Source: Candidatus Latescibacterota bacterium (lineage in GTDB: Bacteria; JAAXHH01). From it: a stretch of 37,496 bases of DNA. The DNA lies in assembly GCA_022821085.1 (NCBI GenBank), contig JAJEEG010000001.1, forward strand, positions 1 to 37,496. The letters are read 5' to 3'. Under the pieces are notes generated by a model that worked only from the letters and a program-made list of their open reading frames with translations, was not told where the DNA came from and did no database searches. The translations under genes were made by a program, and so were the position numbers. This document shows positions 6,235 to 23,522 of the stretch, piece by piece (position 1 is the first letter of the stretch; each line of letters begins with the position of its first letter).

Positions 6235-7371
6235 TCAGTTTGTGTTCGCAGCCCCGAGCAATCGCTCGAATCGGAAGGTCTCATTGGCGATCGTGTTGGG
6301 CTGCCCCAGCGCCGTTTCGGCCAGCCATTCACCGAAGGTGCAGGAGAACTTGAAGCCGCTCCCGCTGAAACCGCAGCCCACGGTCACGCGGTCATGGGCC
6401 GGATGCCGGTCGAGCACGGGCAGTTCGTCCGCCGTGCGGGTGTACATGCAGATCCGCATGGCCGTGAGCGGGCCGTTAGCATCGGGGATGTACCGCCGCA
6501 GGCACGCCCGTACCTCCTCCTCGTCTTCGGGACGGGCATCGCGGTCCAGATGCTCGGGATCGGACGTCTCCCCGAAAGTGTGCAGCGCCAGCTTGAACCC
6601 CGGATGGTCCGGCATCATGGGAAAGCCATAGTATTCGCCGTCGCAATCGGGCGCGGGGATCTGCCAGATCGGCAACGCGCCCACGTCGAAGGACGCCGCG
6701 TTCCGCGCGGGCCACACCCAGGCCAGGGGCTGGCGGGAGACGGTCAGGGTGATGCCCAGGCCGGCGATCAGCCTGTCGGTCCAGGACCCGCCGGTGAAGA
6801 CGACCTGGTCCGCGCTGTAGCGGGCATGCTCGGTCTCGACCTCCACGCACCGGGCCGTCTCGTTCCAACCGGTCACGGCTTCCCGGCCGTGGATCTCGGC
6901 GCCGCGCCTCAGCGCCTGGATGAGGTGGCTCGCGATGCCCAGTTCGGGCCGCAGGAGCCCGCCGACCGGATCGTACAGGCCGTGGTAGTCGGACTCGAGC
7001 GTGAACTGCGGATACCGGTAGGCCACTTCGTCGGCAGTCAGGACCTCGTGGCGGACCTTGCCCCGCAAGTGGTCCCACGTGCCGGTGTCCGCCATGCGCA
7101 GGTAGCCCGTCGTCACCAGGATCTGCTGGCCGGTCTCGCCCTCCAGCAGCCGCCAGAGCTCGAAGGACCGCTCGATGAAGGGTTCGAAAGGCGTGTCCAC
7201 GTACACCGCCGTCTTCGTGTGGCGGGAATACCCGTGAGAACTGCCCTGGGCGTGGGGCAGGTCGAAGCGTTCCAGCCCGAGGACCTTCGCCCCCCGGGAG
7301 GCCAGGTGGTAGCAGGTGGCCGAGCCCATGGCGCCCAGGCCCACCACGATGACGTCGTAGTGGTGCTTCAT
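6235..7371 (-). CDS. Monomeric sarcosine oxidase / N-methyl amino acid oxidase
   Basis: A 378-residue flavoprotein of the MSOX/MTOX (DAO superfamily) group, expected to oxidise sarcosine or another N-methyl amino acid to the amine, formaldehyde and H2O2. The dinucleotide-binding motif is GLGAMG (11-16). C308 in RICMYTRTADE matches the family cysteine that binds FAD covalently, K260 in GFKLALH matches the lysine used for O2 activation, and GSGFKFS (337-343) matches the C-terminal flavin loop, with Ser where MSOX often has His. The start codon overlaps the acpH stop as ATGA (7368-7371), implying translational coupling. The PhyH gene follows after 43 bp. Peroxide generated here might be handled by the OsmC-domain protein two genes upstream (inference). 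Confidence 0.93.
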   Translation of the reverse strand: MKHHYDVIVVGLGAMGSATCYHLASRGAKVLGLERFDLPHAQGSSHGYSRHTKTAVYVDTPFEPFIERSFELWRLLEGETGQQILVTTGYLRMADTGTWDHLRGKVRHEVLTADEVAYRYPQFTLESDYHGLYDPVGGLLRPELGIASHLIQALRRGAEIHGREAVTGWNETARCVEVETEHARYSADQVVFTGGSWTDRLIAGLGITLTVSRQPLAWVWPARNAASFDVGALPIWQIPAPDCDGEYYGFPMMPDHPGFKLALHTFGETSDPEHLDRDARPEDEEEVRACLRRYIPDANGPLTAMRICMYTRTADELPVLDRHPAHDRVTVGCGFSGSGFKFSCTFGEWLAETALGQPNTIANETFRFERLLGAANTN

Positions 7372-8120
7372 CGTCCCCCCGATCCCTCACGCGTGGCGCC
7401 GGCAGGTTTTATCTGTGCTCCCTCCTGCGTGGTGCCGGCCTGTGTTTGCCCCGCCTCCTCCTGCGTGGTGCCGGCCGGTTCCTGCCGCGCTTCCTCCTGC
7501 GTGGTGCCGGCCGGTCCCGGCCGCGTCCCGTCACGAGTCCGATCAGGTCCGGTCTCCATGTGGCGGACCAGGTCTGGGAAGAACCGCAGGAAGTGCCCTT
7601 CCATTTCGTCGTAGTTGGCCTCGAGTTCCTCCACGGAACCCGCCAGCGTATTGGGACGCCGTATGCGCATGGACAGGCCGTCCAGCACCCGGCCGATCCC
7701 CGCGACTTCCCGGTAACCGTGCAGCCAGTCGTGCTTCACCATGTGCCGGATCACCCTCGACAGGACCGGCGGCATATCGCCCCGGTAAGCGCTGAGGGAC
7801 CCGTAGGTCCGCTCGATGAACGCGGCAAGCGGCTCGGCCGAGAAGTCGGTCCAGTTCCGGGCCAGGTAATGGTCGTAGCAGATGTCGACGATGATCCCCG
7901 CGAACCGGCGGCGAGCGGGACTGATGAGTGCCTTGCTCTCGCGGACCACGTCGTGGCCGTCGGTATAGCGGTCCACGGCCACGTGGCTCCGCATGCCCTC
8001 CATGACGGCGCCGTTGTACGGTTGCCGATCCACGGGTCCCCGGACGAAATCCGCCATCAGGTTCCCCACGCGGGATTCGGGCGTGTCTTCAGCGAAGTAC
8101 AGGTGGGCGAGGTAGTTCAT
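7368..8120 (-). CDS. acpH: Acyl carrier protein phosphodiesterase (DUF479) with repeat tail
   Basis: The N-terminal ~190 residues match the AcpH/DUF479 family from the first residue (MNYLAHLYFA, then NLMADFVRG, VAVDRYTD and VDICYDHYLARNW). The family removes 4'-phosphopantetheine from ACP. E. coli AcpH is 193 residues; this protein is 250 because of a hydrophilic C-terminal tail of four 12-residue repeats (consensus AGTTQEEAxQxP), encoded by a 36-bp tandem repeat. The tail is probably disordered and is not part of the catalytic domain. Both ends overlap neighbours by 4 bp: the start with the hydrolase-OsmC gene (ATGA 8117-8120) and the stop with sarcosine oxidase (7368-7371). The gene therefore sits in a tightly coupled operon. 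Confidence 0.9.
   Translation of the reverse strand: MNYLAHLYFAEDTPESRVGNLMADFVRGPVDRQPYNGAVMEGMRSHVAVDRYTDGHDVVRESKALISPARRRFAGIIVDICYDHYLARNWTDFSAEPLAAFIERTYGSLSAYRGDMPPVLSRVIRHMVKHDWLHGYREVAGIGRVLDGLSMRIRRPNTLAGSVEELEANYDEMEGHFLRFFPDLVRHMETGPDRTRDGTRPGPAGTTQEEARQEPAGTTQEEAGQTQAGTTQEGAQIKPAGATREGSGGR
7386..7512. repeat. 36-bp tandem repeat in the acpH 3' end
   Basis: A 19-bp core CTCCTGCGTGGTGCCGGCC recurs at 7422, 7458 and 7494, with a more diverged copy at 7386. The period is exactly 36 bp (12 codons), so expansion keeps the frame. It encodes the AGTTQEEA-type repeats at the AcpH C-terminus. Confidence 0.92.
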
Positions 8121-14222: not shown

Positions 14223-15869
14223 GTGTCAAGGGATTTCAAAGGCAAACGGGTTACCGTACTGGGGCTCGGCGTGCTCTCCGGCGGCGTCGCGTCCGCGCGG
14301 TATTTCGCCGTGCGGGGAGCGGACGTTACCGTCACCGACCTGCTGCCCGCGGAAGCGCTCCGGAAGTCCATGGACGCGCTTGCGCAATGGCCGGTCCGCT
14401 ACGTGCTCGGGGAACACCGGGAGGAGGACATCACCGGCGCGGATCTCGTGGTGGTCGGGCCCGCCGTAAGGGACGACAGTCCCTTTCTCCGCCTGGCGCG
14501 GGACCGGGGCGTCCCGCTGACCACCGAGATGAACCTGGTCTTCGAGACCTGCCGCCGGCCGGTCATCGGCATCACGGGCAGCAACGGCAAGACCACGACG
14601 ACCCGCCTCATCGGCGCGCTGTACCAGGAGGTCGACCCCGAGACGCTGGTGGGCGGGAACATCGGCCGGGCCGTGCTCAACGAGCTTTCGGATCGGGGCG
14701 GAGGCGCAGGTCCCGGCGATGCGGCCGACGGCCAGGGCGATGCGGCCGATGGCTTGCCGGCCGAATCCGCGGAGGCAACGGTCGAATCCGCGGAGGCGAC
14801 GGTCGAATCCGCGGAGGCGACGGCCGAATCCGCGGAGGCGACGGGTGCCACGGAGGCACCGGGCGCCACGGAGGCACCTACCGCCGGCAGTCCCGTGATC
14901 CTCGAGCTGTCCAGCTTCCAGTTGCACCGGTTGGCCTGGATCCGGCGAAGCCCCGGGCTGGCCGTGGTGACGAACCTGTCTCCCAATCACCTGGATTGGC
15001 ACGGGACCTTCGACGCCTATGAGCAGGCCAAGCGGCACATCGTGCACTACCAGTCGCCGGAGGACGTGGTCGTCCTGAATGCCGACGATGAGCGGCTGCG
15101 CGAATGGGCGGCTTTCTGCCCGGGACGTGTCGCCTGGTTCAGCATGGAAGGCCCCGTCGAGACCGGATGTTACGTCCGGGACGGGCAGGTGGTCTTTCGC
15201 GACGGTGCCGGCGAAAGGGACGGTGCCGGCGAGCGCGGCGCATCGAAGGCAGGCGGTGCTGCGGACGACCGCGATCCGGCGGACGAGCGTATTGTGTGTC
15301 CCGTGGACGCCCTCCGGCTCCCGGGTCCGCATAATCGGGCCAACCTGCTGGCCGCGGTGACGGCCGCATGCCTGGGCGGCATCCCGGCTTCGGTCATCCG
15401 GTCGACGGTGGAGACTTTCCGCGGCGTGGAACACCGCCTGGAAGAGGTGGCCGAGATCAATGGCGTGCGCTACTATAACGATTCGGCCTGCACCACGCCG
15501 GCATCGACGGTCACGGCACTCCGGGCGTTCGACGCGCCGGTCGTCCTGATCGCGGGCGGGTACGACAAGGGGACGGCCTTCGACGGCATGGCTTCGGAAG
15601 CCGTGCGGCGCGCCCGGGCCGTTGTCCTGATCGGTGCCACGGCGGACGCGATCGAAACTGCAATACGCCAAAACGGGACGACGACCACGCCAGTTGTCTC
15701 CCGTGCCGACACGCTCGGTGACGCCGTCCGGCAAAGCGCCAGGCTGGGGCGGATCGGAGACGTGGTGGTGTTGTCGCCCGGTTGCGCCAGTTACGACATG
15801 TTCACCAATTTCGAGGAACGCGGGCAGCGATTCAAGGAAGCCGTGTCCGCATTGGAAAGAGATGGATGA
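14223..15869 (+). CDS. murD: UDP-N-acetylmuramoyl-alanine--D-glutamate ligase with two loop insertions
   Basis: Cytoplasmic peptidoglycan precursor ligase adding D-Glu to UDP-MurNAc-L-Ala. Domain 1 has GLGVLSGG (14-21); the ATP loop is GITGSNGKTTTT (116-127); GNIG (145-148), ELSSFQL (228-234), NHLDWHGTFDAYEQAK (K270 is the expected carbamylated lysine) and HRLEEV/NDSACTTPAST (about 404-429) follow the family order. At 548 residues it is about 100 longer than typical MurD. The excess is two low-complexity inserts, residues ~159-222 (repeats ESAEATV, GATEAP, GDAADG) and ~327-356 (DGAGER twice), in the central domain between conserved blocks. The start is GTG 14223. The gene stands apart from the usual division/cell-wall cluster and is followed after 13 bp by the hydroxyacyl-CoA dehydrogenase gene. 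Confidence 0.95.
   Translation: MSRDFKGKRVTVLGLGVLSGGVASARYFAVRGADVTVTDLLPAEALRKSMDALAQWPVRYVLGEHREEDITGADLVVVGPAVRDDSPFLRLARDRGVPLTTEMNLVFETCRRPVIGITGSNGKTTTTRLIGALYQEVDPETLVGGNIGRAVLNELSDRGGGAGPGDAADGQGDAADGLPAESAEATVESAEATVESAEATAESAEATGATEAPGATEAPTAGSPVILELSSFQLHRLAWIRRSPGLAVVTNLSPNHLDWHGTFDAYEQAKRHIVHYQSPEDVVVLNADDERLREWAAFCPGRVAWFSMEGPVETGCYVRDGQVVFRDGAGERDGAGERGASKAGGAADDRDPADERIVCPVDALRLPGPHNRANLLAAVTAACLGGIPASVIRSTVETFRGVEHRLEEVAEINGVRYYNDSACTTPASTVTALRAFDAPVVLIAGGYDKGTAFDGMASEAVRRARAVVLIGATADAIETAIRQNGTTTTPVVSRADTLGDAVRQSARLGRIGDVVVLSPGCASYDMFTNFEERGQRFKEAVSALERDG
14715..14879. repeat. 21-bp and 18-bp tandem repeats inside murD
   Basis: In order: two 21-bp units encoding GDAADGQ/GDAADGL (14715-14756); four near-identical 21-bp units starting GAATCCGCGGAGGC (14763, 14784, 14805, 14826) encoding ESAEATV; two 18-bp units encoding GATEAP (14844-14879). 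All periods are multiples of three, and the copies differ by only one or a few bases, so the expansion looks recent. Confidence 0.93.
15201..15236. repeat. 18-bp tandem duplication inside murD
   Basis: GACGGTGCCGGCGAAAGG (15201-15218) is followed by GACGGTGCCGGCGAGCGC (15219-15236), encoding DGAGER twice within the second MurD insert. Confidence 0.9.
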
Positions 15870-21443: not shown

Positions 21444-23522
21444 TCAGGCACTCGCCTCAACCAGCGACTTCGCCCTGGCGGCGATGTGCTCCGCGGTGAA
21501 GCCAAGGTGCTCGAACACGTCCTCGTAGGGCGCAGACGCGCCGAAGCGTTCGAGACCGATGACGTCGCCCCGCGGGCCCACGTACCGCTCCCAGCCCAGC
21601 GTGACGCCGGGTTCCACGGCCAGGCGTGCGGTGACCGACGCCGGAAGCACGGACTCCCGGTACTCCGCGCTTTGCGCTTCAAACAGTTCCCAGCTTGGCA
21701 TGCTGACCACGCGTGCGGCCACGCCTTCACTGGCCAGCTTTTCCCGGGCCTCGAGTGCCAGGTGGACCTCCGAACCGGAAGCAATGAGGATCACGTCCGG
21801 GTCGCCGGCCGCGTCGCCGGCCCCGTTGCCGTCCGCTTCGGCCAGCACATAGGCGCCCCGGTGCAGGCCGTCGGCGGGTGCCAGCCCCGAGGTCGACGCC
21901 AGGCCGTCGGCGGGTGCCGCGCCGTTCCCTTTCCGATCCAGCACAGGCAGTTTCTGCCGGGTCAGGGCCAGGGCGATCGGGCCGTCCGTGCGCCTTAGCG
22001 CCGCCACCCAGGCCTGCGCTGTTTCGGCGGCGTCGGCGGGGCGGATCAGGGTGAGGTTGGGGATGGCCCTCAGCGCCATGTAGTGTTCGATGGGCTGGTG
22101 AGTGGGGCCGTCCTCGCCCAGTCCCACGCTGTCGTGGGTGAAAACGTAGACTGGGGCAATGCCCATCAGGGCCGCCAGGCGTATGGCCGGCCGCATGTAG
22201 TCCGAGAACACGAGGAACGTGCCGGCGTAGGGGCGCAGGCCCCCGTGGAGCGCCATCCCGTTCAGCGCGGAGGCCATGGCGTGTTCGCGCACGCCGAAGT
22301 GCAGGTTGCGGCCCGCGTAGTTTCCGGCGGTGTAATTCGATTCGGCCTCCACCATGGTGTTGTTGGAACCGGCCAGGTCCGCCGAACCGCCCAGCAGGCC
22401 CGGGATGCGCTGGGACAACGCGTTGATGGTCACGCCGGACGCCTGACGCGTTGCCATGTCCCCCTGATCGGGCGAAAAGGTCGGCAGGTTTTCGTCCCAC
22501 CCGGCCGGCAGTTCGCCGTCCATGGCCTGCTTCCAGGTATCCGCCAGTTCCGGGAAAGCGTCCGCGTAGGCTAAGGCGGCCTGACGCCAGGCCAGTTCCC
22601 ATCCCTTTCCGTACGGGACCATCTGCTGGAACCAGTCACGTACGTCCTCCGGGACGAGGAACTTCGGTTCAAGCGGCCACCCGAGGTGCTGCTTGGTCAG
22701 TTCGACTTCCTCTTCGCCGAGGGGCTCGCCGTGGGCCTTGGACGTGCCGGCCTTGTTGGGGCTGCCGTAGCCGATGACCGTGCGGCACAGGATGATCGAG
22801 GGACGATCCGTCTCGGTGCGCGCCATTTCGACCGCGGCTTCGACCCGGGCGAGGTCGTTGCCGTCCAGGACGCGCTGCACGTGCCACCCGTAGGCGTCGA
22901 ACCGCAGGCCCGTGTTCTCCGAAAAGGCCAGGTCGGTGCCGCCGTCGATCGTGATGCTGTTGTCCAGGTAGAGGACGATCAGCTTGCCCAGGCCGAGGTG
23001 CCCCGCGAGGGAACAGGCCTCGGAGGCGACGCCTTCCATCATGTCGCCGTCGCTGGCGATGACATAGGTATAGTGGTCGACGATCTCGTGGCCGGCGCGG
23101 TTGTACCGGGCCGCCAGGTGCGCCTCGGCCATGGCCATGCCCACGGCGTTCGCGATGCCCTGGCCGAGCGGTCCCGTGGTGGTCTCCACGCCGGGCGTAT
23201 CGCCGTATTCGGGATGGCCGGGCGTCCGGCTCTCCCATTGCCGGAAATTCCTGATCTCGTCGAGGGGAAGGTCGTAGCCGGTGAGATGGAGCATGGCGTA
23301 GAGCAGCATGGACCCGTGCCCGCCGGAGAGCACGAAGCGGTCGCGGTTCGGCCATTCGGGGTTTTTCGGGTTGTACCGCATGAGGCGCGTCCACAGCACG
23401 TAGGCGATGGGCGCGGCTTCCATGGGAAGGCCCGGATGGCCGCTGTTGGCCTGCTGGACGGCGTCGACGGCCAGCATGCGGATGGTGTTGATGCATCGTT
23501 GCTCGAGATCGTGTTCTGACAC
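21444..23522 (-). CDS. tkt: Transketolase
   Basis: A 692-residue thiamin-diphosphate enzyme of the pentose phosphate/Calvin pathways. The N-terminal ThDP motif reads [13 protein letters not shown] with [10 protein letters not shown]; early motifs [13 protein letters not shown] and [14 protein letters not shown], and the pyrimidine-domain block [16 protein letters not shown] with FGVREHAMA, are all as in bacterial Tkt. A hydrophilic segment near residues 543-585 contains a duplicated ADGL unit and a [12 protein letters not shown] stretch before [13 protein letters not shown]. It lies at the linker between the middle and C-terminal domains and is longer than usual. The start is GTG 23522 with AAAGGA about 8 bases upstream. 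It follows the FGGY kinase on the same strand, 93 bp apart. Confidence 0.97.
21864..21918. repeat. Direct repeat, 36-bp period, in the tkt linker
   Basis: CAGGCCGTCGGCGGGTGCC occurs exactly at 21864-21882 and 21900-21918. The 36-bp period preserves the frame and encodes the repeated APADGL units of the transketolase linker. Confidence 0.88.

Follow-up and report, generated by a model that had tools for sequence, protein, structure and literature searches.

Coding minisatellites in surface loops of MurD and other conserved enzymes in a Latescibacterota genus

Results

A murD gene with in-frame inserts

The window, that is, the entire 37,496-nucleotide stretch of DNA that was analysed, encodes a MurD with two low-complexity inserts as well as several other enzymes with species-variable segments. 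The relevant features are the following.

14223..15869, forward strand: murD (UDP-N-acetylmuramoyl-L-alanine--D-glutamate ligase), 548 aa, GTG start
14691..14885, forward strand: loop insert 1, residues ~157-221, predicted to be disordered (pLDDT <50 over 160-220), holding tandem arrays; delimited by alignment to congeners and outgroups
14715..14753, forward strand: older 21-bp-spaced duplication GDAADGQGDAADG (GDAADG-Q-GDAADG) preceding the arrays; direct repeat D2, 94% identical
14758..14844, forward strand: 21-bp minisatellite, 4.1 copies, ESAEATV-type units (TRF, 95% matches; copies aligned in register)
14833..14885, forward strand: 18-bp repeat, 2-3 copies, GATEAP units (GATEAP x2; TRF)
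15201..15292, forward strand: loop insert 2, ~24 extra residues after VVFRD (alignment; pLDDT <50 at residues 331-334 and 336-350)
15677..15693, forward strand: site 3, after residue 489, unexpanded in the window's species (alignment)
21444-23522, reverse strand: transketolase; two loop inserts that vary among species, of which the first is built from duplicated copies of the protein's GLAPADGL segment
23616-25292, reverse strand: FGGY-type kinase; DTSQPPC x3 array at the N terminus and a variable internal loop insert of 10-28 aa

The original prediction of a real MurD with all motifs retained is borne out: the protein scores 376.9 bits against the TIGR01087 family profile, far above the curated cut-off of 211.95, and its P-loop, GNIG, ELSSFQL, HRLE, NDS and C-terminal motifs occupy invariant or nearly invariant columns in an alignment of 33 sequences. 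Its relatives include proteins with solved structures. A search of the same genome (3.75 Mb, 96% complete) detected no second murD at the TIGR01087 cut-off, the remaining matches being MurC/E/F-type ligases that all score below it; a second, normal-length copy, which was originally proposed to indicate that the present one is dispensable or decaying, was thus not found. The presence of insertions in a core enzyme could in itself suggest such decay, but this is the sole murD, its frame is intact, its catalytic motifs are kept and its core is 90% identical to those of G002 and G008, which makes a decaying or dispensable gene very improbable. Judging from these features, the protein appears to be an ordinary, apparently working MurD. 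The MurE/F/C-type ligases of this genome (G000) are grouped at C1:834840-839705, and murD lies on a separate contig (C7), away from this cluster.

Both of the originally reported in-frame low-complexity inserts are recovered, with ~61 extra residues between the GNIG and ELSSFQL motifs and 24 after VVFRD. The arrays in the first insert are coding minisatellites (tandem units of 10-60 bp, with a period divisible by 3, in frame), with a 21-bp unit in 4.1 copies and an 18-bp unit in 2-3 copies; the ESAEATV units comprise two exact copies together with ESAEATA and ESAEATG. The second insert starts with a direct repeat of 14 nt, free of mismatches and spaced at 18 bp (RDGAGE x2). The alignment additionally reveals a third variable loop site, after residue 489, that was absent from the original prediction and is short in the window's species.

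Placement of the inserts in the predicted structure

An AlphaFold model of MurD built with 33 family sequences (mean pLDDT 84, pTM 0.83) adopts the three-domain Mur ligase fold, and its top Foldseek matches are solved MurD structures (E 3e-42; TM-score by target up to 0.86). The pLDDT falls below 50 at residues 160-220 and most of 331-350, and is mostly above 90 in the flanking helix, strands and active-site segments. As originally suggested, the inserts were mapped onto the model: insert 1 is predicted to lie between helix 152-158 and strand 225-228, and insert 2 between strands 322-327 and 354-360, that is, in surface loops between secondary-structure elements. Accordingly modelled, both inserts would be disordered loops on a standard MurD fold, with the core untouched. 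The growth of repeats inside a core enzyme had been considered unusual, and across bacteria this might hold; however, many genes in this genus carry repeats (see below), and those of MurD are located in surface loops.

Variation of the loop sites among congeners

We aligned the MurD sequences of 11 congeners (the window's included; core identity to the window's MurD at least 85%) and four outgroups from the same family or order, with one genome per species. The cores of the congeners are 85-90% identical to that of the window, and the inserts map to three loop sites that vary among the species of the genus but are short and constant in the outgroups. Site 1 (GGNIG to ELSSFQ) spans 84 aa in the window's MurD and 21-75 aa in the congeners, compared to 23 aa in all four outgroups (+61 in the window); site 2 (FRD to PGPHN) spans 42 aa in the window's and 18-66 aa in the congeners, compared to 18 aa in the outgroups (+24); and site 3 spans 45 aa in the window's, 45-89 aa in the congeners and 44-45 aa in the outgroups, being expanded by 15 to ~45 aa in G001, G002, G003, G008 and G010. 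Even between the sister species G003 and G006, there is a length difference of 5 aa at site 1 and of ~29 aa at site 3. Variation in repeat copy number, as originally suggested, is supported between species. The MurD tree within the genus is mostly unresolved, so that gains are not separable from losses. A literature search on inserts in MurD yielded nothing relevant.

The DNA of insert 1 is called a tandem repeat by TRF only in G000 and G006, and no longer in most congeners; the composition and position of the insert suggest that in most of these, too, it originated by a tandem route. The 21-bp unit of G000 and the 18-bp unit of G006 have a common GAATCCGsGGAGG core, which would fit independent amplification of the two arrays from a common seed. 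Metagenome assemblies are prone to error at tandem repeats, so an assembly or sequencing artefact has to be considered. However, independent MAGs from several projects carry differing in-frame inserts at the same sites, the frame is kept, and expansion is seen at many loci, leaving the artefact with a negligible probability, the lowest among the explanations weighed here.

Repeats in other genes

Among the 15 genes of the window with at least one comparable relative, species-variable in-frame segments were identified in four, encoding MurD, transketolase, the FGGY-type kinase and an aminotransferase; the remaining genes of this set have no internal indel of at least 6 aa. In the transketolases of G004, G007 and G014, the loop lacks the insert and reads DR-xx-LAPADGL-xx-GAYVL, and those of G000, G008, G002 and G001 contain extra GLAPADGL-like units. 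The G000 gene includes a 19-bp perfect copy of its own flanking sequence, a segment that is single in the insert-free relatives. Because the unit duplicates native flanking sequence, its source is local tandem duplication rather than an invading element. MurD insert 2, with RDGAGE x2 at its start, points to a similar origin.

This observation bears on the possibility that a selfish element akin to the Rickettsia palindromic elements inserts in frame, which would explain why many unrelated genes carry in-frame inserts. Apart from the transketolase unit copying native sequence, there are no convincing dispersed copies of the insert DNA in the same genome (the best other match is 46 bits over 51 bases), the inverted arms are only 70-76% complementary and derive from the tandem unit itself, and the unit sequences vary from gene to gene. 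A selfish element is thus largely refuted and appears highly unlikely.

Elsewhere in the genome, arrays are present in the genes for MurE (N-terminal), the 2-oxo-acid dehydrogenase E2 subunit, a class I/II aminotransferase, an FAD oxidoreductase, an S41 peptidase, a UvrD/PcrA-like helicase and a transglutaminase-like protein; some of the locations, such as the E2 linker and protein tails, are places where linkers are normal. The MurE array (L106:9456-11075) is an N-terminal, in-frame 18-bp array, GRTDRTDQAGRADRAARAARA. Within the window, a small protein resembling ACP phosphodiesterase (7368-8120, reverse strand) has 36-bp repeats (PAGTTQEEA units) forming its C-terminal tail.

Genome-wide density of in-frame arrays

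We surveyed in-frame arrays (period 9-120; minimum score 50) in genes predicted by a simple codon-usage caller. The samples are parts of genomes: G000 and G001 provide the two largest of the genus, and small ones represent G004, G007, G008 and the non-family controls. The density reaches 133, 247 and 128 arrays per Mb of coding sequence in G000, G001 and G002, respectively, compared to 17 in G012 and 6 in G013, which represent two other genera of the family. The 437-kb sample of G000 contains 51 in-frame arrays, in 13% of the predicted genes, and in the 220-kb sample of G001, 22% of the genes are affected, against 0.6% and 1.9% in the two other genera. Neither GC content nor composition alone accounts for this density, given that codon shuffling yields 7-16 arrays per Mb in G000, G001 and G002 against the 128-247 observed.

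Within the genus, the excess is most pronounced in one part: in the small samples of G004 and G007, the density (49 and 29 per Mb, respectively) is near background. The difference between G000, G001, G002 and G008, with high densities, and G004 and G007, with low ones, offers a possible within-genus contrast for tracing the cause. Two unrelated high-GC genomes represented by small samples, G050 and G031, likewise show high densities, partly from acidic or Pro-rich linkers; a high density is hence not unique to this genus.

In G000, the period is divisible by 3 in 72 of the 87 coding arrays but only in 23 of the 57 non-coding or edge arrays (Fisher p 2.5e-7). Of the residues in the peptides encoded by the arrays, 12% are hydrophobic (34% in the proteome) and 77% small/polar, and the peptides are net acidic, whereas net basic ones would result from the five alternative frames of this DNA. 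These biases in period and peptide are consistent with DNA-level expansion and subsequent selection on the frame and on peptide character.

The consistently small/polar, acidic composition across species and the repeated use of the same three loops could also indicate that the inserts are functional disordered regions, involved in partner binding, regulation or Mur/divisome assembly, and kept and diversified by selection. We consider this unlikely, though less so than decay, a selfish element or an artefact: an insert is entirely missing from close relatives, at site 1 in G002 and G008 and at site 2 in G003 and G006, there is no conserved motif, and similar inserts are present in unrelated enzymes.

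Discussion

By far the most probable explanation is that this is a normal, functional MurD carrying coding minisatellites that expanded in situ, passed a filter for reading frame and loop tolerance, and belong to a genus-wide process. Replication slippage or unequal exchange would create tandem duplicates of short local DNA segments at loop positions, and these duplicates would later be amplified, diverge and sometimes be deleted. The alleles that survive would be those in which the frame is kept, the peptide is small/polar/acidic and disordered, and the site is a surface loop; the same expansion would act across the genome in this Latescibacterota genus. Slippage is the presumed molecular step, and the inserts are probably neutral, in the sense of having no dedicated function.

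As to the rate of expansion, the genes for MutS, MutL, RecJ and XseA (ExoVII) are present across the genus, which excludes, at the level of gene presence, the loss of any of these as the cause of repeat growth. The mutS gene of G000 (C3:94935-97646) has an apparent ~50-aa insert near profile position 790, with a frame of 946 aa versus 865 in G014. Tentatively, a heritable trait in part of the genus, related to how the DNA is replicated or recombined or to weak selection under a host-associated lifestyle, might drive genome-wide birth of minisatellites, such that essential enzymes gain disordered loops on the time scale of species. An association of Latescibacterota with sponges has been described, with no mention of low complexity or insertions (PMC12993501), and such an association may extend to this particular genus.

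Nothing new is implied for the function of MurD. The genus provides a natural experiment on the sites at which conserved enzymes accept disordered insertions and on the origin of new protein segments by local duplication; its closely related genomes hold many events that appear to be independent. Homology searches call for caution, too, as they split such enzymes: the MurD match breaks into two pieces.

Comparison with known systems

In its motifs, predicted fold and score above the cut-off, this protein resembles the rest of the MurD family (TIGR01087), from which the genus differs in having three loop sites with species-variable low-complexity inserts. Housekeeping enzymes of Plasmodium contain disordered, variable low-complexity inserts in surface loops, with Asn runs; here, in contrast, the host is a GC-rich bacterium and the inserts are made of small and acidic residues. 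Like the Rickettsia palindromic elements (PMC10969869), the inserts are in frame and interrupt unrelated conserved genes, but they have no common element sequence and no dispersed copies, the units are local duplications, and the arms are imperfect. Coding minisatellites, or VNTRs, and intragenic microdiversity in bacteria (for example, PMC2884548) likewise involve variable stretches of some tens of bases that stay in frame within genes; in the present case, the arrays occupy loops of core metabolic enzymes, at about ten times the density seen in other genera of the family. The mechanism itself is not new; what stands out is its genus-wide extent and the number of arrays in core enzymes.
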